From Melioribacteraceae bacterium (GTDB taxonomy: Bacteria; Bacteroidota; Ignavibacteria; Ignavibacteriales; Melioribacteraceae), in the NCBI GenBank assembly GCA_021739765.1, contig JAIPBD010000010.1, positions 62,001-126,000 on the forward strand: a DNA stretch of 64,000 nt, read 5' to 3'. This document shows, one piece after another, positions 30,545 to 63,600 of the stretch (positions within the stretch are counted from its first letter, which is position 1; each line of letters starts with the position of its first letter). The position numbers and the translations under genes were made by a program. The notes under the pieces are model-generated. The model was not told the origin of the DNA. It ran no database searches and saw only the letters and a list, made by a program, of their open reading frames with translations.

Positions 30545-33500
30545 TTATTTAAAAGCACTTCTGACTAAGTTCTCTTGTGTTTTCATAAACAATTTGCTTG
30601 AACCGTTCGCCGGACTTGGGTTTTCATCTCTTCCGCAATAATCCAGTTTTTTCCCTTTCGGTAAATCATTAATCAATTTTGGGAATAAATAGTACCATGC
30701 TCCCATATTTTGCGGCTCTTCCTGAACCCAGACAATTTTTTTCGCTTTCGGGTAAGTATCAAAAATATTTCTTATTCCGATCGGATCGTATGGATAATAT
30801 TGTTCAAGTCGGATAATCGCGGTGTCTTTAATTTCATTCATATCACGAAATTTCTCAAGTTCGTAATAAACTTTTCCACTGGTGAACAGAATTCTTTCAA
30901 TTTTGTTTTTATCCTTATCCTCAATATTATCATCAATTATATTCCTAAAAGTTCCATCAGTAAAATCTTTAATTTCTGATCTTGCCGCTGGCAGTCGAAG
31001 TAAACTTTTTGGTGTAAGCACGATTAAAGGTTTTTCGATTCTGGTTAGTATTTGCCTTCTCAACAAGTGAAAATACTGAGCCGGTGTTGTCGGATTCGCT
31101 ACCACCATATTGTTTTCGCCGCATAGAATCAAAAATCTTTCCAATCTTGCGCTGCTGTGCTCGGGCCCTTGACCTTCTTGGCCGTGAGGAAGTAACATTA
31201 CAAGATTGTTCGGGAGATTCCATTTCACTTCTGCTGATGCAATAAAGTTATCAATTATAACTTGCGCACCGTTCGCAAAATCGCCAAACTGTGCTTCCCA
31301 AAGTACTAATGCCAGCGGATCAGCCGCGCTAAATCCAAATTCAAAACCGAGAACTGCGTTTTCGGAAAGAAGACTGTCTAATGCTTCAAGCGTTTCTTGA
31401 TTTTCGCGGATATGATTATGCGGTAAAACTTCCTCGCCTGTGTTGATATCCGTAAAGATTAGATGTCTTTGACTAAAAGTACCGCGCGCACTATCCTGAC
31501 CGCTAAGTCTTACCGGAGAACCTTCCAGTAATAATGTTCCGAACGCGAGCGCTTCGCCAAACGCCCAGTCTATTCTGGCGTTTCCTGTAAGCAATTCTTT
31601 TCGTTTATTAATGTGTTTTTTCAACTTAGGATTAAGCGTGAAATTTTCGGGAAAGTTTGTGATACCTTTAACAACTTCAACCAGTCTTTCTTTCGTAACT
31701 CTTGTTTCATAAACCACTTTTGCGTTTTTCAAGGTCTCCATTGAAATCGCGAGTGGTCGATCTGGCTTAAACATTTGTTTTTTGTTTTTTGAAGATTTTA
31801 ATGATTTTTCAAGAGTTTTATATACCTCTTCCTCCATCGATTTTATCTCTTTTTCAGAAAAGGTGTGATCATCAACTAACTTTTTAGCGTAAATATTTTT
31901 AACCGATGGATGCGCTTTGATCTTTTTATACATTAAAGGTTGCGTATAAACCGGATCGTCACCTTCATTATGACCATGTCTGCGGTAACCAAAAAGATCG
32001 ATCACAACATCTTTGTTAAACCGCTGCCGATAATCGAAGGCAAGTTTTGTCACCCAAATTGATGCTTCGGGATCATCGCCGTTTACATGGAAGATTGGAG
32101 CTTGAACCATTTTCGCGACATCCGTTGCATAAGGTGATGACCTGGCATCTTCGGGTGCGGTTGTAAATCCAATTTGATTGTTGATGATCAAATGAATCGT
32201 TCCGCCCGTTCTATATCCTTTTAATTGCGACAAGTTCAAAGTCTCCGCGACGATCCCTTGTCCGGCAAATGCGGCATCACCGTGTATTAAAAGTGGAATA
32301 ATTTTATTGCGGTCCAGATCGTTTTTGCGGGTTTGTTTTGCCCGAACAATTCCTTCAACAACGGGATTAACGAATTCCAAGTGACTCGGATTGGAAGCAA
32401 CCGAAACTTGAATTTCTTTGTTAGTCATAGTTTTATAAGTTCCCGTCGCGCCAAGGTGGTATTTAACATCGCCTGTTCCTTGCGGAGAATCCGGATCAAT
32501 ATCATCTTCAAATTCTGAAAAAATTTGATCGTACGATTTCCCGATTATGTTTGAAAGCACGTTCAATCTGCCTCGATGCGCCATCCCGAGGAAAACTTCT
32601 TCAACTCCATCTTCGGCTGAGAGACTAAGTATGTAGTCGAGAACGGGAATAACGGTTTCTGATCCTTCCAGTGAAAATCTTTTATGACCGATAAACTTTG
32701 TATGAAGAAAATGTTCGAAACTTTCCGCGATAATCAATTTTTCCAGAACTCGTTTTTTTGTTTGATCATCATATTTAGGACTATTTCTGATTGGCTCCAT
32801 TCTGCTCATCAGCCAATATTTTTCTTCGGGATTCTGGATATGCATAAATTCAGCGCCAACTTTTTCGCAATAGGTATGATGTAAAGCATCAAGAATTTCA
32901 CGAAGCGTTGCTTTCTCTAAACCTTGTAAGTTGCCTGTGATAAATTCCCTGTCATAATCCCAAATTGTGAATCCATAACTCGCGGGATCTAATTCAGTGT
33001 AATAATCGGGTTTAAATGCTAATGGATTCAGATTTGCATTTAGGTGCCCACGGACTCGATAAATATTTATCAATAAAGGAATTTGAGCTTGTTTACTGAT
33101 TTCTTCCATATGAGCCGCTGAACCGTAAGATGAAGATGTTGTGTCAACACCCCATGAAACTGGACTCTGAGGAATTTCCAGGTCATCGTAAATTTGTTCG
33201 TAAAAATTATCGTCACCTCTGAGCAAACTATCGATTTCTTTCAAAAATTCACCGGATTCAGCACCCTGGATTATTCGATGGTCATAAGTACTGGTCATGT
33301 TCATCACTTTACCGATTCCCAAACCGGCAAGAGCGGATTGACTCATAGCCTTAAATTCGGCAGGATAATCGATGGCGCCCACAGCAATGATGCAGCCCTG
33401 TCCGGTCATTAATCTTGGCGTTGAAGATACAGTCCCGATTCCTCCGGGATTTGTTAAACTAATTGTTGTTCCTTGAAAATCAGACGGTTCAATTTTACCG

Positions 33501-34186
33501 GTTCTTGTTCTAGTTATAAGGTCATCATAAGCAGCTTTAAATTGTGCGAAATTCATTTGAGACGCTTTTTTGATATTCGGAACGATGAGTGACCGGGTAC
33601 CATTTTTACGAATCATATCAACGGCAATGCCAAGATTGATAAATGGCTTTTTTACGAGGTGTGGTTTGTCATCAACAAGCGCAAAAGAATTGTTTAATGA
33701 TGAAAATTTTCTGATTGCTTTTACAATTGCATAAGCGACAACATGCGAATACGAAATTTTGCCGCCGTTAATTCGTTTTAAATGATGATTGATAATTCGT
33801 CTATTTTCTTCAAGTAGTTTTACCGAAACCGTTCTTAATGAAGTTGCAGTTGGAATTGTTAAACTGCTATCCATATTCTCAATAATTTTTGCACCGATTC
33901 CGGTAATTAATTCCGCTTCATCGTCGGACGAGATTTCAAACGAGGGGGATAGGTTTTGTTTTGCGACAGAAGTTGAAGACTGTTTGGCTACCGGTTTTGA
34001 TTCTTCGGAAGCCGTTCCATTACCAAATTTTGTAATTTTATCGAAATAGCTCTTCCAATACTCCGATACGGATTCTCTATCTTCTAAATATTTTTCCAAT
34101 AAATCAGAAACAAATCCAAAATTGTATCCAAAATGTTCAAATAATTCTTTGTGAAAATCTTCCACCTTTTTCATGTAAGCAGCCAT
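30545..34186 (-). CDS. kgd: Fused 2-oxoglutarate decarboxylase/dehydrogenase E1 with E2 succinyltransferase core
   Basis: The 1213-residue protein matches the actinobacterial OdhA/Kgd fused type. Residues 1-60 (FGFVSDLLEKYLED...) are the E1-type N-terminal helix segment, about 90-340 form the E2 acyltransferase core (VPNIKKASQMNFAQFKAAYD, active site TYDHRIIQG), and the remainder is thiamine-diphosphate E1 (LGMAHRGRLNVL, HGDAAFAGQGIVAETLN, RRHGHNEGDDP). There is no lipoyl domain, so it must use lipoyl groups from a separate E2. The TCA-cycle step is 2-oxoglutarate to succinyl-CoA. The gene stands alone and converges on the M23 gene. The fused architecture is unusual outside Actinobacteria but is known from some Bacteroidota. 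Confidence 0.95.
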   Translation of the reverse strand: MAAYMKKVEDFHKELFEHFGYNFGFVSDLLEKYLEDRESVSEYWKSYFDKITKFGNGTASEESKPVAKQSSTSVAKQNLSPSFEISSDDEAELITGIGAKIIENMDSSLTIPTATSLRTVSVKLLEENRRIINHHLKRINGGKISYSHVVAYAIVKAIRKFSSLNNSFALVDDKPHLVKKPFINLGIAVDMIRKNGTRSLIVPNIKKASQMNFAQFKAAYDDLITRTRTGKIEPSDFQGTTISLTNPGGIGTVSSTPRLMTGQGCIIAVGAIDYPAEFKAMSQSALAGLGIGKVMNMTSTYDHRIIQGAESGEFLKEIDSLLRGDDNFYEQIYDDLEIPQSPVSWGVDTTSSSYGSAAHMEEISKQAQIPLLINIYRVRGHLNANLNPLAFKPDYYTELDPASYGFTIWDYDREFITGNLQGLEKATLREILDALHHTYCEKVGAEFMHIQNPEEKYWLMSRMEPIRNSPKYDDQTKKRVLEKLIIAESFEHFLHTKFIGHKRFSLEGSETVIPVLDYILSLSAEDGVEEVFLGMAHRGRLNVLSNIIGKSYDQIFSEFEDDIDPDSPQGTGDVKYHLGATGTYKTMTNKEIQVSVASNPSHLEFVNPVVEGIVRAKQTRKNDLDRNKIIPLLIHGDAAFAGQGIVAETLNLSQLKGYRTGGTIHLIINNQIGFTTAPEDARSSPYATDVAKMVQAPIFHVNGDDPEASIWVTKLAFDYRQRFNKDVVIDLFGYRRHGHNEGDDPVYTQPLMYKKIKAHPSVKNIYAKKLVDDHTFSEKEIKSMEEEVYKTLEKSLKSSKNKKQMFKPDRPLAISMETLKNAKVVYETRVTKERLVEVVKGITNFPENFTLNPKLKKHINKRKELLTGNARIDWAFGEALAFGTLLLEGSPVRLSGQDSARGTFSQRHLIFTDINTGEEVLPHNHIRENQETLEALDSLLSENAVLGFEFGFSAADPLALVLWEAQFGDFANGAQVIIDNFIASAEVKWNLPNNLVMLLPHGQEGQGPEHSSARLERFLILCGENNMVVANPTTPAQYFHLLRRQILTRIEKPLIVLTPKSLLRLPAARSEIKDFTDGTFRNIIDDNIEDKDKNKIERILFTSGKVYYELEKFRDMNEIKDTAIIRLEQYYPYDPIGIRNIFDTYPKAKKIVWVQEEPQNMGAWYYLFPKLINDLPKGKKLDYCGRDENPSPANGSSKLFMKTQENLVRSAFK

Positions 34187-34446: not shown

Positions 34447-34614
34447 ATGGCAGCCGAATGTCCGGTCTGTGGTGCTGATATTGAGTTTCCGGAAGGCACA
34501 GTTGAAAATGAATTAATCGAATGCCCGGATTGCGGAACTGAATTGGAAGTCATCTCCGTCGATCCTCCCAAAGTTGAAGAAGCTCCGAGTGAAGAAGAAG
34601 ATTGGGGTCAGTAA
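34447..34614 (+). CDS. lysW: LysW amino-group carrier protein with C-terminal Gln (EDWGQ)
   Basis: LysW is a small acidic carrier; its terminal Glu gamma-carboxyl is joined to alpha-aminoadipate by LysX and holds the intermediate through LysZ, LysY and LysJ. This 55-residue protein has the zinc-ribbon Cys pairs CPVCG (5-9) and CPDCG (26-30), an acidic linker and the end EEEDWGQ. The canonical end is EDWGE, and here the final codon is CAG (Gln). The ATG follows AAGTGAGG. The 260 bases upstream hold the operon promoter region; I see no convincing sigma boxes or riboswitch there. The TTG of the next gene starts directly after the stop. Confidence 0.93.
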   Translation: MAAECPVCGADIEFPEGTVENELIECPDCGTELEVISVDPPKVEEAPSEEEDWGQ

Positions 34615-35778
34615 TTGTTAAAAATACTTGATACAACCCTTCGCGAAGGTGAACAAACCCCCGGTGTTTATTTCGATCTGCACATAAAATCCGCAATTGC
34701 CGATTTATTGGATGAAATCGGTGTGGATATTATCGAAGTTGGTCACCCGGCTGTTACAGAAGAAATTAGACTGGCTGTTAGTTCGATCGCGAAAAGAGGA
34801 TTAAATGCCAGAGTAGGTGCTCATTCCAGAACAACCTTAAATGATGTTGAACTTGCTTTAGATTGTGGTGTTGGGTTTCTGGGAATTTTCTACTGTGTTT
34901 CCAATGATAGACTTAACGGTGTATTTAAAAAAGAACTTTCTCATGCCATCGGGCAAATTCAAGAAATGATCACACTGATCAAATCTAAAAATTCAGATAT
35001 TATTGTTCGATATACTCCCGAAGATACTGTCAGATCAAAATATGAAAATGTGTTTTCAGCCGCCTCCGCTGCGGTTGAAGCCGGAGCTGATGTAATTTCG
35101 ATCGCCGATACAACCGGATTTATGATCCCGGGAACATCGCATAATATGTACGATCATGTTAAGAGATTAAAAGCTGATCTGGCTGAAAAGAATTTATTCC
35201 CCATGATCGCGGTTCACTGTCATAACGATAGAGGTCTTGCACTTGCCAATGCGTTGGATGCTTATCGCGGAGGGGCTGAGATTATCGATGCTTCCGTAAT
35301 CGGATTAGGAGAAAGGGCCGGTATTGTTGATTTAGCTCAACTCCTTGTAACATTATCATCCGGATTTGGGTTTGAAAACAGATGGGATTTGAAAAAACTA
35401 GTTGAACTTTATGACCTTGTAAGCAAACATTCAGGTGTAACAATTTCTAAAAATTTTCCTATAATTGGTGAAAATGCATTTACACATTGTGCGGGTGTAC
35501 ATACACATGCTGCCGCAATCAATCCAATGCATTACGAAAGTCTTGATCCTGCACTAGTTGGCAGAGAGCGTACATTTGCATTAGACCATATGTCCGGAAT
35601 TGCATCAGTAAAATATGCGCTTGAATTAATCGGTATTTTCAATCCTGATAAAGAAACTATTCAAGAAGTATTATTTGAAGTAAAAAAAGTTGGTCAAAAA
35701 GGACGACTTGTCGATCTTACCGAACTTCCTCATATCGTAAAATCTATAAAACACATCAAGTCTACAGCTGTTAAGTAG
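34615..35778 (+). CDS. Homocitrate synthase (LysS/NifV-like)
   Basis: This 387-residue enzyme condenses 2-oxoglutarate with acetyl-CoA to homocitrate, opening the alpha-aminoadipate route to lysine. The HMGL-like barrel is marked by LDTTLREGEQTPGV (metal and substrate site), HCHNDRGLALANAL (metal-binding His pair), GLGERAG and the family HTHAAAINPMHYE block. NifV is an alternative name for the same reaction, but the operon with lysW, lysX, lysY, lysZ and lysJ supports the lysine role. The TTG start is immediately after the lysW stop with no gap. Confidence 0.9.
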   Translation: MLKILDTTLREGEQTPGVYFDLHIKSAIADLLDEIGVDIIEVGHPAVTEEIRLAVSSIAKRGLNARVGAHSRTTLNDVELALDCGVGFLGIFYCVSNDRLNGVFKKELSHAIGQIQEMITLIKSKNSDIIVRYTPEDTVRSKYENVFSAASAAVEAGADVISIADTTGFMIPGTSHNMYDHVKRLKADLAEKNLFPMIAVHCHNDRGLALANALDAYRGGAEIIDASVIGLGERAGIVDLAQLLVTLSSGFGFENRWDLKKLVELYDLVSKHSGVTISKNFPIIGENAFTHCAGVHTHAAAINPMHYESLDPALVGRERTFALDHMSGIASVKYALELIGIFNPDKETIQEVLFEVKKVGQKGRLVDLTELPHIVKSIKHIKSTAVK

Positions 35779-35815: not shown

Positions 35816-36658
35816 ATGAAAATAGGATTTTTACATTCCGTTATGCGAAGAGACGAAAAGTTATTACTGGAGGCTTTTAATAAGAGACCAAATATTGAAT
35901 TAGAATTAATTGACGATCGAAAGTTAGCTTTTAATATCAGTCATAATAAATTTTCGTACGATACGGTAATTGAAAGAGCAATAAACCACTCACGGGCATT
36001 GCACGCGATAAGGCTTTTCGAAAGTGAAGGTATCAAATGTGTCAATAATTCTAAAGTTGCGACTATCTGTGGAGATAAATTATTAACTTCAATTAATCTG
36101 AAAGAACATAATATTCCTCAACCGGAAGTTAGAGTTGCTTTTACCGAAGAATCCGCGCTTGAAACTATTGAGGACATGGGTTATCCGGTGGTTCTTAAAC
36201 CGGCCGTTGGATCGTGGGGAAGATTGCTCTCAAAAATAAATGACCGTGACGCGGCAGAATCAATTTTGGAGCATAAAGCTATTCTCGGTACATATCATCA
36301 TTCGATTTTTTATATCCAAAAGTATGTTGCAAAACAAGGGCGTGATATCCGCAGCTTTGTAATCGGTGATGAGTGTATTGCCGCAATTTACAGGACTTCC
36401 GAGCATTGGATTACAAATACGGCGCGAGGTGCGGTAGCATCAAAATGTGAGATGAATGATGAGATTTTCGATCTTTCGGTTAGAGCCGCAAAGGCCGTTG
36501 GTGGAGGCGTTGTCGCAATCGATCTTTTCGAAACAGATGAAGGTTACTCAGTAAACGAAGTTAATTATACAATGGAATTTAAGAATAGTATTGATACAAC
36601 CGGAGTTAATATCCCGGATAAAATCGTAGATTATGTAATTAGTGAAGGCACAAAATGA
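35816..36658 (+). CDS. lysX: LysW-alpha-aminoadipate ligase LysX
   Basis: LysX is an ATP-grasp ligase that joins the alpha-amino group of aminoadipate to the LysW C-terminal Glu. The 280-residue protein has the ATP-grasp pattern: [54 protein letters not shown] and [23 protein letters not shown] (metal ligands Glu/Asn). The NTARG element is typical of LysX/ArgX. With LysW ending in Gln, this enzyme would need a Glu-ended form of its partner (see findings). The following gene overlaps by four bases. Confidence 0.93.
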
Positions 36659-37704
36659 TGAACAAAATCTCAGTATCTATTGTCGGCGGCTCCGGATACG
36701 CTGGGGGAGATTTAATCCGATTATTACTCTTCCATCCAAACGTTGAACTAAAACAAGTTACTTCCGAGCGATTTTTAGGTAAAGCACTTTATAAGGTACA
36801 TCCAAATCTTAGAAAGCAAACTGATCTAAAATTTTGTGCTATTGATGAATTGGAGTCGTGTGATGTTATATTTCTGTGTTTGCCTCATGGCAAAGCTATG
36901 GGAAGTATCGAAAAATTTAATTTGCTGGCTGACAAAATAATAGATTTAAGTGCTGACTTTAGACTAAACAATCCTGCTGAATTCAAAAAATGGTATGGCG
37001 AGGATCATAAATTTCCTGAAAAATTGAACGAATTTGTTTATGGAATTCCGGAACTTCACCGTGAGGAAATGAAAACTGCAAAATATATTTCTAGTGCGGG
37101 TTGTAATGCAACGACTACAATTTTAGGTCTTTATCCATTATATAAAGAAGGTTTGGTTGAACCGGATAGAACGGTTGTTGAAGTAAAAGTAGGTTCGAGT
37201 GAAGGGGGAAACAGGTCAACTGAATCCAGTCACCATCCGGTGAAAGATGGGTCGGTTCGTTCATATCAACCTACTCAACACAGGCATACGGCTGAAATAA
37301 TACAAGAGCTCTCTTTTGGCAAAGAGATTAAAATTCATTTTTCCGCCACTGCTCTGGATATCGTACGCGGTATTCTCGCGACTTCACATGTTTTCTTAAA
37401 TCAGGAATTAGAAGAAAAGGATATTTGGAAGCTTTATAGAAAATATTATGCGAACGAATATTTTATTCGTATCGTGAAGGAAAAAGAGGGCAATTACCGT
37501 TACCCCGAACCGAAAATAGTTGCCGGTACAAATTTTTGCGATATTGGGTTTAAGAAAGATGAAGAATCAAACCGATTGGTTGTGATTTCTTCAATTGATA
37601 ACTTGATGAAAGGGGCCGCGGGACAGGCGCTTCAGGCATTTAATATTATGAATGGATTGGAAGAAAAAACCGGGCTTGAGTTTCCGGGTCTTCATCCTTA
37701 TTAA
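36655..37704 (+). CDS. lysY: LysW-aminoadipyl-6-phosphate reductase LysY (ArgC-like)
   Basis: LysY reduces the LysW-bound aminoadipyl phosphate to the semialdehyde with NADPH. The 349 residues show the Rossmann start [17 protein letters not shown] and the catalytic-Cys block [17 protein letters not shown], followed by the ArgC C-terminal signature [17 protein letters not shown]... and [13 protein letters not shown]. ArgC proper works on N-acetylglutamyl phosphate; operon context here favours the LysW-linked substrate. Starts at ATG inside the lysX end; the amidotransferase-like gene begins 11 bases after its stop. Confidence 0.92.
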
Positions 37705-37715
37705 ACCGTCAATTT

Positions 37716-38351
37716 ATGTGTCGATTACTTTATATAAAATCAAAAAATGAATTTGAGATTCCGGAATACCTGAATAGATTTTCTAAAATTTGTAAAAAGA
37801 GCAAAGAATTTCAAGGACACGGATGGGGAATTTCATACATCAAAAATGATGAGTGGATTCACTACAAAAACGTCTCACCGATTTGGGATGATAATCTGAC
37901 ACGGTTCCCAGAATCAAATCAAATAATCGTACATGCCCGAAGTGCTTTTCAGGATAAAGATATTCGCGTCGAAAATAATATGCCGTTTTACGATACTAAT
38001 CGAGTTTTTATTTTTAATGGCGAACTTCGGGGTGTAAAAATTAAAGCTGAAGGAAGAATTGGAGCGGAGAAAATCTTCAATTTTATTAATCGATTTTTCA
38101 AAAATGATTATCTGGAAGCTTTGAAAAAGGGAACTGAAGTAATTATCAAAAGAAGTGGTTATGTTCGTGCGATGAATATTATTGTATCGGACAAATCCAA
38201 TGTTTTTGTCTCATCCACTTTTAATGAAGATCCGGAATATTTTCAAATGAAATTTGCGAATCAAGATGATAGATTAATGATTTGTTCTGAGGAACTGGAA
38301 GGAATTCCAGATTGGAAATTGATCGAAAATAATTCAGTGAGGAAGTTTTAA
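37716..38351 (+). CDS. Class II (Ntn) glutamine amidotransferase-like amidohydrolase inside the lys operon
   Basis: The 211-residue protein begins MCRLL, so removal of Met would expose Cys2 as the Ntn nucleophile. Further class II features are GHGWGISY (35-41), VHARSAF (Arg75, the carboxylate binder), ENNMPF and FIFNGEL (Asn101-Gly102 oxyanion hole), closest to the YafJ/EgtC group. At the place where GlmS has TDTE (Asp123 binding the free alpha-amino group) this protein reads IGAE (116 is Gly). It lies between lysY and lysZ; its stop overlaps the lysZ ATG. Known EgtC cleaves a gamma-glutamyl amide. A role at the LysW C-terminus (deamidation or lysine release) is my inference. Confidence 0.85.
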   Translation: MCRLLYIKSKNEFEIPEYLNRFSKICKKSKEFQGHGWGISYIKNDEWIHYKNVSPIWDDNLTRFPESNQIIVHARSAFQDKDIRVENNMPFYDTNRVFIFNGELRGVKIKAEGRIGAEKIFNFINRFFKNDYLEALKKGTEVIIKRSGYVRAMNIIVSDKSNVFVSSTFNEDPEYFQMKFANQDDRLMICSEELEGIPDWKLIENNSVRKF

Positions 38352-39142
38352 TGATAATCGTGAAAATCGGTGGTGGTGAAAATATTAATATCAGCGGTGT
38401 AATAGCTGATCTCGCGAAACTTGATGAAAAGTTTATTGTCGTTCATGGAGCAAATGCGCTTAGAGATGAACTTGCCCAAAAACTGAATTATGAAAAGAAG
38501 ATTCTTACATCTGTATCAGGCTATCAAAGTGTCTATTCTGATGACGAAGCGCTTGATAGTATGATGATGGCTTATTCAGGATTAAGAAATAAACGCATTG
38601 TTGAAGAGTTTCAAAAAAATGGTGTTAATGCTGTTGGAATTACCGGTTTGGATGGCAAAACAATTCAAGGAAAAAGAAATAAAGGAATCAGGGTTCGTGA
38701 AAATGGGAAGTTGAAAATGCTTCGTGATTTTTCCGGCAAACCCCAGTCTGTCAACACAGATCTTATTAATCTTTTATTGGATAATAATTACACTCCGGTT
38801 TTAACAATGCCAATTATTGATGAAACGGGTTACGCGATAAATTCGGAAAATGATGATGTTGTAGCAGTCCTTCAAAAAGAATTAAAAGCCGGCAAAGTAA
38901 TTCAATTAATTGAAGCAACGGGATTTTTAGAAAATTCGAAAGACGATTCCTCTGTGATACACAAAATCACGAAAGCTGAATTGGAAACTAAAGAGCATCA
39001 AGTAGAAGGCCGTATGAAACGAAAAGTTTTAGCACTAAGAAATTTATTTGAATCTTCCGATACAACCGTTTATATCTCAGACGGTAGAACCGAACATCCG
39101 ATTGAAGACGCACTTAACGGAAAAGGAACGGTGATAGAATGA
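38351..39142 (+). CDS. lysZ: LysW-aminoadipate 6-kinase LysZ (ArgB-like)
   Basis: LysZ phosphorylates the side-chain carboxyl of LysW-bound aminoadipate. The 263-residue amino-acid-kinase-fold protein starts MIIVKIGGGENI and contains VVHGANALRDELAQKL, VGITGLDGK, the Lys/Asn-rich substrate loop VNTDLINLLLDNNYTPVLTMP and INSENDDVVAVLQKEL, closely following ArgB/LysZ. The ATG overlaps the stop of the amidotransferase-like gene (TAATG) and the stop overlaps lysJ (ATGA), so the whole block is translationally coupled. Confidence 0.92.
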   Translation: MIIVKIGGGENINISGVIADLAKLDEKFIVVHGANALRDELAQKLNYEKKILTSVSGYQSVYSDDEALDSMMMAYSGLRNKRIVEEFQKNGVNAVGITGLDGKTIQGKRNKGIRVRENGKLKMLRDFSGKPQSVNTDLINLLLDNNYTPVLTMPIIDETGYAINSENDDVVAVLQKELKAGKVIQLIEATGFLENSKDDSSVIHKITKAELETKEHQVEGRMKRKVLALRNLFESSDTTVYISDGRTEHPIEDALNGKGTVIE

Positions 39143-40293
39143 GCAGAACCATAGACTTGCAAAATAAGTATGAATTTGATGTTTATCCAAAGCGTGATCT
39201 TGTTATAAACAGAGGCAAAGGTGCTAAGGTTTGGGATGAAAACGGACGGGAATTTATTGATTGCATCGGTGGAATTGCCGTTGCTTCAGTTGGTCATGCA
39301 AACGAAAACGTCGTTAAAGCAATAAGCGATCAGGCGGCAAAGCTAATCACTTGTCCCGGTATTTTTTACAATGAAACAAAAGCAAAATTTTTAGAAAAGT
39401 TAATTTCGATTGCGCCGCATCCTTTGAAAAGAGCCTTTATTACAAATTCGGGAACCGAAGCGGTGGAAGCAGCGCTAAAATTCGCAAGATTTTCAACCGG
39501 TAAAACGGATTTTATTTGCGCAATGAAAGGATTTCACGGCAGAACTTTCGGCGCGATGAGCGCAACTTTTAAAAAGGAATATCGGGAAATTTATGAACCG
39601 AACGTGCCCGGGTTTTCATTTGTTCCTTTTAATAATATCGAAAAGTTAAAAGATAAAGTAACCGATAAAACAGCCGCGATAATGTTAGAAGTTATTCAAG
39701 GTGAAGGCGGAATTAATATTGGTGAAAAAGAGTATCTAAAAGAAGTAAACAATTTTTGCAAAGCAAACGGTATTTTGTTGATTGTTGATGAAATCCAAAC
39801 CGGATTTGGTCGGACAGGTAAAATGTTTGCATCGGAATATTATGAAATTGAACCCGATATGATGACTGTTGCAAAAGCTATTGCGGGAGGTTTCCCATTA
39901 GGAGCGGTTTTGTGCGCGGAATCTGTTCAAATCCCTAAGGGAAAACATGGCTCAACCTTCGGCGGCAATCCATTGGCTTGCGCTGCGGGATTGGCGGCAA
40001 TGGAATTTATCACAGCTAACGATCTTCCCCAAAAGGCAAAAGATTCAGGTGAATATTTTATCGCTAAAATAAGGGATATCAAATCGGATAAAATTCGAGA
40101 TATAAGAGGACTTGGTTTGATCATCGGAATCGAGCTAAAAGAAAAAGTTCAACCATACATTCTCAAATTGATGGAAGAAAATATTTTAACGCTCCCTGCC
40201 GGCGTAACTGTCCTTAGACTTGTTCCTCCGCTCGTAATAACAAATGAAGAAATCGATCTTGTTGTTGAAAAATTAAGTACAGTGCTTGCATAA
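39139..40293 (+). CDS. lysJ: LysW-aminoadipate semialdehyde aminotransferase LysJ (ArgD-like)
   Basis: LysJ is a class III PLP aminotransferase that converts the LysW-linked semialdehyde to LysW-lysine. The 384 residues show FITNSGTEAVEAALKFAR, GFHGRTFGAMSAT, VDEIQTGFGRTGKMF and the PLP Lys in TVAKAIAGGFPLGAVL, with GSTFGGNPLACAAGLA downstream. It ends the recognisable lysine operon. No LysK-type M20 peptidase follows: the next gene, 217 bases on, is a lipoprotein. Confidence 0.93.
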   Translation: MSRTIDLQNKYEFDVYPKRDLVINRGKGAKVWDENGREFIDCIGGIAVASVGHANENVVKAISDQAAKLITCPGIFYNETKAKFLEKLISIAPHPLKRAFITNSGTEAVEAALKFARFSTGKTDFICAMKGFHGRTFGAMSATFKKEYREIYEPNVPGFSFVPFNNIEKLKDKVTDKTAAIMLEVIQGEGGINIGEKEYLKEVNNFCKANGILLIVDEIQTGFGRTGKMFASEYYEIEPDMMTVAKAIAGGFPLGAVLCAESVQIPKGKHGSTFGGNPLACAAGLAAMEFITANDLPQKAKDSGEYFIAKIRDIKSDKIRDIRGLGLIIGIELKEKVQPYILKLMEENILTLPAGVTVLRLVPPLVITNEEIDLVVEKLSTVLA

Positions 40294-60637: not shown

Positions 60638-63600
60638 ATGGATTTATTAAAAAAACTGGGAATAGCAGAAGATGGTTCTGTTAATACGATCAAGACAAAA
60701 AAAATTGTTCAGTACATCAATCTTAAGTTGGGCGCGTTAGGCCAACCGCATTTTGGAAATAAATCCGATAATAAATTTCTCGAAATCGCCGAGGATTTAC
60801 TTTCTAACCACAGAGAAAAAAATAGACTTCTAACGGACTATCTTTGTCCTTCCGATCAAAGAATTCAAAATTTTATTGATTCATATTTAAGTGAATATAA
60901 AAAGGACATTTCCCCTCGTCTTCCTTCAAAAACTTTTATTCTTGATTTTCACGGGATCGCGAGAGCGTTATCGCTTTCACCCGATAAGGATAAGTTTCAA
61001 TCAAATATAATCGAGTCTTACCGTATAAAACAAGGTGTACTGCATAATCCGAAAAATGACCGGAGAACAACTAAAGGTGTTTTTCATGTTTCCGAAGGTG
61101 GATTGCCGGTTCCATACGATAAAAAGGCAGTTCCTAAATTAGTTTTCGGAAAACTTCTCGAAGCGGCATTAAATCCACCAAAAGAATTGTTGGAATTCCC
61201 ATTCACAAGTTCACAAGATGAACACGCGGAAATGTTTGTATCGTTGTTACTCCGTCCGAAAGTCAGCCCCGAAGTAAAAGGAATAAGCAAAGAAAAGTCG
61301 ATGGAGATTCGGTTTTTCGCTCCCGGCAATTTGGTCAGCAATCTTGATTTTGTCGAGTCAATTTTTGGTAACGCCGGTGATCCGTATCTGCCAAAAAATG
61401 ACGCCGGATTGGATCTTGATCATTGGTCAGGTCACTCGGGATGTATAATTCTAGCTCCCCATCTTATTAGTTTGTCCAAAAAGGAACTTGGTCTTCCAAA
61501 TATTAAAGATGCAACCGAACGTCAAAAACGAGACGGAATGTGTTGGGAAAATGCCGATGAAAAATATAACGATGGGGGCGCGTTTAAAATAACCGCTCGT
61601 AATGATGAAGGAATTATTGTTACCGTTATTGCTGATAATTACTTCGGATATTCAAAGAAGGAAGTTAAAACCCAAATTAGTTATGCGGCGAATTTATTGG
61701 GAAATGTTGAAGAAGAACACGCCGGCGGTGCTATTGCTTTCCCAAGTTATAATCTCGGCGATGAATTCCACGATGATGATCAATTCTTAAAAAAGAACCA
61801 CTCATTCGAAGATAATTTGAAAAGATATTCTGACTTGATGGAATATAAAGAGGAAGGTTATGCTGTTGATAAAAACTTCAAAAACATAATTTATATCCAC
61901 GAAGACGCGAGATTTAGTCTGCGAGAACAAACTTTACGATGGATGAATGATGGAGTTCAACAGACAATAAAACTCAATCCCAAAATTACTTATATCTATC
62001 CCGCGGGCTATAAACTTAGGATGGAAAAAAATCCTTCAGTTCCATCATGGCGTTTAATCGGAACGGTTGCCGAAGGTACTTTTTGTCACAAACCCTCAAC
62101 GGTTTCCGGTGGGGGAAAATCAGAAATTTCGAAATCAATTTCTGATTCAATTTTGTACGGTCCGTTTTTTGTCTCCGATTATGATTCGGATCTTAAAATT
62201 GTTGATGATATTTTGAGCCGCGATTATTTTGACCGTTATAAAACACGTACGAAAAAACCCGGCAGCAGCCGTCCCATTCTCAGCAATGAAAGGTCTCTCG
62301 GATCTGTTATTAAACTATTGACACCTTCCATTGATTACAAGGATGAGTACAACGAATGGTTGAGAGGAATTCCGCATTACATTAAAGGATTGGTATATAT
62401 TATTAAACGATTTTATAAAGAAGATTGGGGCGAAAACTGGAGAGAACATTTCACAGTTGATATTATCGACGGAAGAAACGGTAACGAGCTAAAATTTTCG
62501 GAAAGAAAACTTGTGGCGACTTATCTCCGTGTCGGACTCGAAAAAAACGGCGCTTGGCGAACTTATAAATTACGCCAAGATTTTATCGCTTCCCAAAAAA
62601 TTCAATTCGAAGATGATATTACTGCGTCAATTGTGATTCCTACAGATAAAGTTGAACATTTGGCTGATGATTTTGACAGTCCATGCGCGAAATTTTTAGA
62701 TAATTGCGAGTACAGATTTTTTCAAAGACCGGACGAAGCGATTCACCGTGGATATGATAAACAAGCCGAACTTGATCTGTCTTCGCCTAACACTTTTATT
62801 TCAAACTTCCAAGCGCTCACGGTTGATGACGCGATCGAAATTACCGAGGACGCGATCAATTTTGATAAATATACCGATCCGATTAAAAAGCTGATTCTTG
62901 ATGTAAAAGAAAAGAAAGATTGCACTTATTTTGTATCGTCTTCCCATCCCCGCATCGTTGAAGGTAAGCCTTCAAAAAATATGAGATATTTACAAAACAG
63001 ACTCGATATTCTCGATCCGTTTGATAAATATGTCGCTGAAATAGGAACTCGTCTGTTCAGAAAAATCCCTCTCGATAAACCGGTGTTAAACCCGGTTAAT
63101 TCGGTTCTTGCGGGAAGACGAAACAATCCTCCGGAAGAGGGAATTCGTCCGCTGGCAGTTTACAATCCAATTCATTATCAAGAATTGCCAGAATTGTTTA
63201 TGGATTTTATTTGTAGCCTGACCGGAAAATCTCCATCCACAACGGGAGCCGGAAGCGAAGGAGCATTAACAAAAGCTCCTTTTAACGCTCTTTGCACTAT
63301 AACCGATTTAAATAACGCATTGGTTTCATTTATTCTTACCGGATACGATGGATTCACGACCGCTGCCGGTTATGTCGGTCCAAATTACAGAGTTGATCAT
63401 GATGTCAGTTTATTGATTCCAGAGATTTGGGCGCGATTAAAAGTAAACGAACGAAATCCTAAACACCTCATCGAAAATGGATTTTTGGAAAAATTAAATG
63501 ATTTTGAGTATGAAGGCGAAACAATTTATGCGAGCAGACTCGGATATCGGATAACCGCAAAATTTGTCGCTAATTATTTTGGACGTGTATTTGAAAATCC

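Follow-up and report, generated by a model that had tools for sequence, protein, structure and literature searches.

The window analysed here, a stretch of 64,000 nucleotides from a Melioribacteraceae bacterium (positions 62,001 to 126,000 of contig JAIPBD010000010.1, assembly GCA_021739765.1; 37 contigs and 4.54 Mb in the whole genome), carries an operon of the LysW carrier-protein pathway, and within it a gene at 37716..38351 for an N-terminal nucleophile (Ntn) hydrolase, which we call GAT, gene and protein alike. The operon lies on the plus strand and reads lysW, a homocitrate-synthase-like gene, lysX, lysY, GAT, lysZ and a lysJ-like gene. The amino-group carrier protein LysW (34447..34614, 55 aa; TIGR01206 71.4 bits, cut-off 53.2) has the C-terminus EDWGQ, its final Gln being encoded by a CAG codon (34609..34611) with TAA next, whereas the LysW proteins described so far end in EDWGE, the final Glu being the attachment point of the amino acid being built (PMC10433800). 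The homocitrate-synthase-like ORF (34615..35778; PF00682/HCS_D2; TIGR02146 341 bits, under the 413.55 cut-off), called from TTG, begins immediately after the lysW stop. It is followed by lysX, for the ATP-dependent ligase that loads the carrier (35816..36658; TIGR02144 343 bits, cut-off 275.6), with its GSWGR motif retained, and by lysY, a reductase gene of the argC family (36655..37704; TIGR01850 403 bits, cut-off 233.6). Downstream of GAT lie lysZ, the [LysW]-aminoadipate kinase gene (38351..39142; NF010659 246.7 bits, cut-off 223), and the lysJ-like aminotransferase gene (39139..40293; TIGR00707 447.6 bits, cut-off 410.05; LysJ model NF042418 459 bits, under its cut-off of 700). LysW, LysX, LysY/ArgC and LysZ thus all scored over their NCBIfam cut-offs. 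The position of GAT between lysY and lysZ, stated in the original prediction, was confirmed: GAT starts after a gap of 11 bases from lysY, and its stop shares 1 base with the lysZ start (TAATG, 38349-38353).

The GAT protein is a lone Ntn domain of 211 aa with the N-terminus MCRLL and no synthase domain. All the residues named in the original prediction were found in this ORF, and all are invariant in the 89 family members: Cys2 (37719..37721), the putative catalytic nucleophile once Met1 is removed; Arg75 (37938..37940), the expected alpha-carboxylate binder; Asn101-Gly102 (38016..38021), the motif that in this class would form the oxyanion hole; and Gly116 (38061..38063), within the IGAE of residues 115-118. 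A profile alignment of the GAT family with E. coli YafJ, a class II amidotransferase family protein (PF13230), ran over the full length (E 7.5e-14, a single comparison) and matched Arg75 with the Arg of HIRQA and Asn101-Gly102 with the NG of YafJ. Cys2, Arg and Asn-Gly are therefore common to both proteins, whereas Gly116 stands opposite the D in the TDSE of YafJ, as the predicted Asp-to-Gly exchange requires. In glutamine-using class II relatives this Asp binds the free amino group of the substrate. An hhalign comparison of the family profile with the N-domain of E. coli GlmS gave no usable alignment, and the SETDTEVI motif of GlmS was seen by eye.

The predicted structure of GAT (pLDDT 93.5) has the Ntn fold common to EgtC, GlmS and PurF. 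Its closest match among the fold families listed by VIA-align was EgtC, the ergothioneine-pathway amidohydrolase (PDB 4zfj/4zfk/4zfl; 15% identity). EgtC cuts a gamma-glutamyl amide; its substrate is a small molecule, whereas the proposed substrate of GAT is the tail of a carrier protein. GAT is not an EgtC by score (41.5 bits with the equivalog model TIGR03442, far under the 218.65 cut-off), and it lies slightly under the gathering cut-off of 23.0 with PF13230 (GATase_4; 21.3 bits, E 1.5e-4). These were the only two models returned from Pfam and NCBIfam at E 0.001, and GAT is thus not a member of the LysK family (TIGR01902). Since no curated family scores over its cut-off, automated annotation is expected to give GAT no more than a generic amidotransferase label and to flag LysK as absent. 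A PDB sequence search with the single protein gave 2 matches, both of other folds (E 0.36 and 1), and a search with the family profile found EgtC weakly. The window GAT has a pI of 8.63, and the idea of a basic protein gripping the acidic LysW was dropped, as the charge comparison was not informative (family median 7.60, n=89, against 7.22 for LysY).

GAT travels with LysW. Among 198 genomes of its own phylum, LysW was found in 14 and GAT in the same 14, with E values of 1.9e-48 or better; a 15th match (G107, E 5e-4) falls in one domain of a larger protein (605 aa, N-terminus MCGIFGVI) and was not counted. A contig scan gave 234 GAT relatives, and all of the best 80 examined lay at loci with lys genes, in records titled as Ignavibacteria, Calditrichota, KSB1, delta- and gammaproteobacterial metagenome-assembled genomes, SAR324, Binatia, Phycisphaerales and Woesearchaeota. 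GAT is flanked by lysY and lysZ in 86 of 96 loci (some genomes having been reached twice), and its placement is therefore not chance; of the remaining 10 loci, a contig end interrupts 7, and the other 3 are real splits (L088, and the pair L027/L120 from a single genome, G062, whose lysW, lysX and lysY are on a different contig from GAT). One further LysW operon (L230, in G330) has two LysX-like genes, possibly one ligase for aminoadipate and the other for a different amino acid.

GAT also excludes LysK, the M20-family zinc enzyme that releases lysine, when LysK is called by a TIGR01902 match over the curated cut-off of 163.1 bits. Three phylum samples were used, namely the own phylum, the phylum of archaeon AR15 (279 genomes) and Planctomycetota (294 genomes). 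Across the 40 LysW genomes tested, 20 had GAT only, 18 LysK only, none both and 2 neither. LysW passed its cut-off in 5 of the 279 genomes of the AR15 phylum, where GAT was present in 5/5 and LysK over the cut-off in 0/5; among the 21 LysW genomes tested in Planctomycetota, 1 had a strong GAT and 18 had LysK, again with no genome having both. Weak matches were not counted as LysW (14/35 in Planctomycetota, at 28.8 bits or less, and 3/8 in the AR15 phylum, all below 20 bits), nor was a 25.8-bit match in G675 counted as a GAT family member. As for the two genomes with neither, G682 carries a LysK fragment of 156.9 bits, under the cut-off, at 15-641 of its contig and near the contig end, and G553 (L223) has a lone LysW-like protein ending EDWSE, without other lys gene matches in 11.6 kb. 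In a set of 43 GAT genomes, none had a LysK-model match over the cut-off (best 106.5 bits). The absence of lysK from the window operon, noted earlier, extends to its whole genome, where no TIGR01902 match passed the cut-off (best 47.7 bits). Conversely, the operon on a Deinococcus plasmid follows the textbook layout: it includes an annotated [LysW]-lysine hydrolase and lacks a GAT gene; a plasmid search with the GAT protein gave a single weak match (E 0.4), and a Thermomicrobium roseum plasmid locus, where lysX has no neighbouring annotated lys genes, was not used. Where lysK is in the operon, it follows the kinase gene or lysJ, in contrast to the slot of GAT between lysY and lysZ.

Two archaeal loci, L107 (a 1.16 Mb chromosome record) and L096 (a genome of ~0.9 Mb), each hold most of the pathway genes in one run: LysW, homocitrate synthase, two homoaconitase-type subunits, a homoisocitrate-dehydrogenase-type gene, LysX, LysY, GAT, LysZ and LysJ. 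Both homocitrate synthases score over the LysS cut-off, although the 2-isopropylmalate-synthase subfamily model also passes and scores higher on both; the other early genes, scanned with family models in L096 only, pass at subfamily level or miss the specific models. Neither run yielded a separate aminoadipate aminotransferase, which leaves the pathway incompletely accounted for. The C-terminal stretch of each homocitrate synthase (L096:3970-5346 and L107:3987-5372) matches LysM, a lysine regulator, which suggests that these enzymes may have built-in lysine feedback and fits lysine as the probable end product of the operons. Neither genome has a LysK-model match at E 0.001 or a LysA over the cut-off. 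Release is here the carrier-bound step without a recognised enzyme, and GAT is the gene left over.

The tail of LysW differs between the two operon types. In GAT-type operons it ends in Glu in 58/75 and in Gln in 17/75 cases (51/68 and 17/68 without seven duplicate genomes), and in LysK-type operons in Glu in 20/20 and in Gln in 0/20; the 75 include G062 (L235), with the hydrolase on another contig, and the 20 include G682 and 6 genomes with LysK on another contig. Fisher tests of operon type against Gln tail gave 0.019, or 0.010 without seven same-genome rows, rough values that treat rows as independent. The LysY tree contains at least 10 tail changes inside the GAT operon type; at that rate ~6 would be expected on the LysK-type branches and 0 were seen (Poisson P ~0.002 without L216, again rough, with branches treated as independent). 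A sister-pair comparison found only 2 independent pairs on supported branches and had no power. The Gln-tail genes, that of Stygiobacter electus 09-Me (L114) among them, use both Gln codons and three stop codons, so the Gln tail is not one copied error. GSWGR, the tail-recognition motif of LysX according to the same source (PMC10433800), is present in 17/17 Gln-tail operons; LysX therefore presumably meets a Glu tail. The simplest account would be a side-chain-amide hydrolase that makes Glu and Gln tails interchangeable. A W-x-T-N-T payload motif of LysX, whose identity with the published signature was not confirmed, occurs in GAT-type and LysK-type operons alike, the Deinococcus lysine operon among them.

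The gene, its operon, the invariant residues, the predicted fold, the co-occurrence with LysW and the exclusion with LysK in the tested samples form the observed basis for our interpretation. From these genomic data we infer that GAT is very probably a cysteine Ntn hydrolase that replaced the zinc enzyme LysK as the last, lysine-releasing enzyme, that is, a LysW-gamma-lysine hydrolase. GAT and LysK would thus share reaction and pathway position and differ in family and catalysis, and their genes replace each other in the tested LysW genomes. In the proposed mechanism, Met1 would be removed and Cys2 would then attack the carrier at its C-terminal glutamyl residue, on the carbonyl of the side-chain amide; free lysine would depart, and water would cleave the thioester to give LysW with a free Glu end, ready for LysX. 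Arg75 would grip the free alpha-carboxylate of the terminal residue, and Gly116 would give room there, because the W-G-E peptide chain already takes up the alpha-amino group. With Gln as the C-terminal residue, this cut would yield ammonia and Glu, and it is reasonably likely, judging from the tails, that GAT also matures Gln-tailed LysW by deamidation.

The original prediction had offered deamidation of LysW, release of lysine, or both. Its lysine-releasing part is well supported by the 40 LysW genomes in which GAT and LysK never met, and its second activity draws indirect support from Gln tails being confined to GAT-type operons. A role in deamidation only would leave lysine release to another enzyme and resembles the action of Dop on Pup, a small tag protein that ends in Gln and must become Glu before ligation, as a Gln-tailed carrier would; Dop is, however, unrelated to GAT in fold, and GAT would also detach the product. 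The window LysW does end in Gln, but the 58 Glu-tailed carriers of GAT-type operons need no deamidase and keep the gene, and none of the tested GAT genomes has LysK over the cut-off. Deamidation alone as the general function was rejected on the first of these grounds, and we regard it as very improbable. Glu tails together with a LysK had been named as the finding that would speak against the prediction; Glu tails proved common, and LysK was not found beside them. A little less improbable is a proofreading or recycling hydrolase for misloaded or stalled LysW adducts, with an M20 enzyme encoded elsewhere releasing lysine. M20-family matches under the LysK cut-off do occur in 39/43 GAT genomes, but five GAT-bearing archaeal genomes (G206, G210, G217, G221 and G330) have no LysK-model match at E 0.001, and in the window genome both matches pass the cut-off of another family, one as a PepT-like peptidase and the other as a dipeptidase.

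Its class II amidotransferase fold, with GlmS and PurF among the structural matches, could also make GAT an ordinary glutaminase or amidotransferase providing ammonia for another enzyme of the operon. A glutamine-dependent enzyme of this kind would have the amino-binding Asp, which is Gly in 89/89 members, and a synthase domain or partner, which the lone domain lacks; the remaining enzymes encoded in the operon are those of the known LysW pathway, in which no ammonia donor is required. We therefore disfavour this role and hold it to be highly improbable. A variant of the hydrolase, in which GAT is also a transferase, is unlikely too. Aminoadipate would attack the Cys2 LysW-thioester, so that LysW-lysine and aminoadipate would give LysW-aminoadipate and lysine, by analogy with ArgJ, which recycles the acetyl group of the arginine pathway. 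The carrier would then be recharged without ATP, Gln-tailed LysW could be loaded directly with loss of ammonia, and LysX would serve for priming only. That the operons have kept lysX makes a complete bypass of LysX less likely.

Several observations weigh against GAT as the lysine-releasing enzyme. One of the M20-family proteins under the cut-off could in principle release lysine, and in the AR15 phylum the best such match reaches 117.4 bits (archaeal genome G276). For the 29 genomes reached via loci, completeness is not stated, and some LysK absences could be gaps. In L088 and L027/L120 (3 loci, 2 genomes) GAT is followed by lysZ and lysJ, and lysY is not upstream. The Gln/Glu contrast between operon types is modest, and its rows are related. 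Since GAT-type operons form one clade, the mutual exclusion amounts to little more than one event, inherited by the descendants seen, and is weaker as statistics. Finally, LysA, the last enzyme of the diaminopimelate route, passes its cut-off in 9/14 own-phylum LysW genomes, 9/12 LysW-negative relatives and 35/55 genomes in all; lysine may therefore have two sources, or the operon may serve another need. The expectation that LysA would be absent where the GAT operon occurs was thus not borne out, the picture being mixed: the window genome has a LysA match of 224 bits only (cut-off 297.9), and none of the archaeal genomes G206, G210, G217 and G221 has LysA over the cut-off. Several genomes of the phylum carry a LysA-like gene of ~213-235 bits, under the cut-off (for example G000:C6:278140-279378), in some beside a LysA over it.

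The clade was seen in a joined LysX, LysY and LysZ tree of 60 operons (40 chosen GAT-type rows and all 20 LysK-type rows), in which the 40 GAT-type operons group with support 99 and have the LysK-type planctomycete operon L216 as sister; in the LysY-only tree, L216 falls inside the GAT-type clade on a long branch. These trees suggest that LysK may have been replaced about once, with later horizontal spread to other bacteria and archaea. L216 (G528) carries LysK while its LysX, LysY and LysZ are sister to the GAT clade, and it may represent the state just before the swap.

Two neighbourhoods deserve a brief record. Upstream of lysW in the window, a 1213-aa ORF on the minus strand (30545-34186) resembles, by eye, a fused 2-oxoglutarate dehydrogenase E2-E1. 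Downstream of the operon in one own-phylum genome (L029) lies an ArgC-ArgJ-ArgB set, so arginine there has its own route.

Our searches of the open-access PMC literature found no description of the GAT gene, subscription journals lying outside that scope. The nearest published notice found is the Caldithrix abyssi genome paper, which gives a single locus, spanning eight gene numbers, for LysWXZYJ and Hcs, with other genes scattered, and does not mention the GAT gene in the part of its text available to us (PMC5317091). Small soluble proteins and a single complementation strain would allow a direct test of the proposed function. If it is correct, the missing last step of lysine synthesis would be filled in Ignavibacteria, Calditrichota, several proteobacterial groups, Binatota and Woesearchaeota, cultured and uncultured alike. 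An unrelated fold would have taken over product release in a carrier-protein pathway, and carriers that end in Gln in place of the essential Glu would be explained as a side effect of the chemistry of the replacement enzyme.
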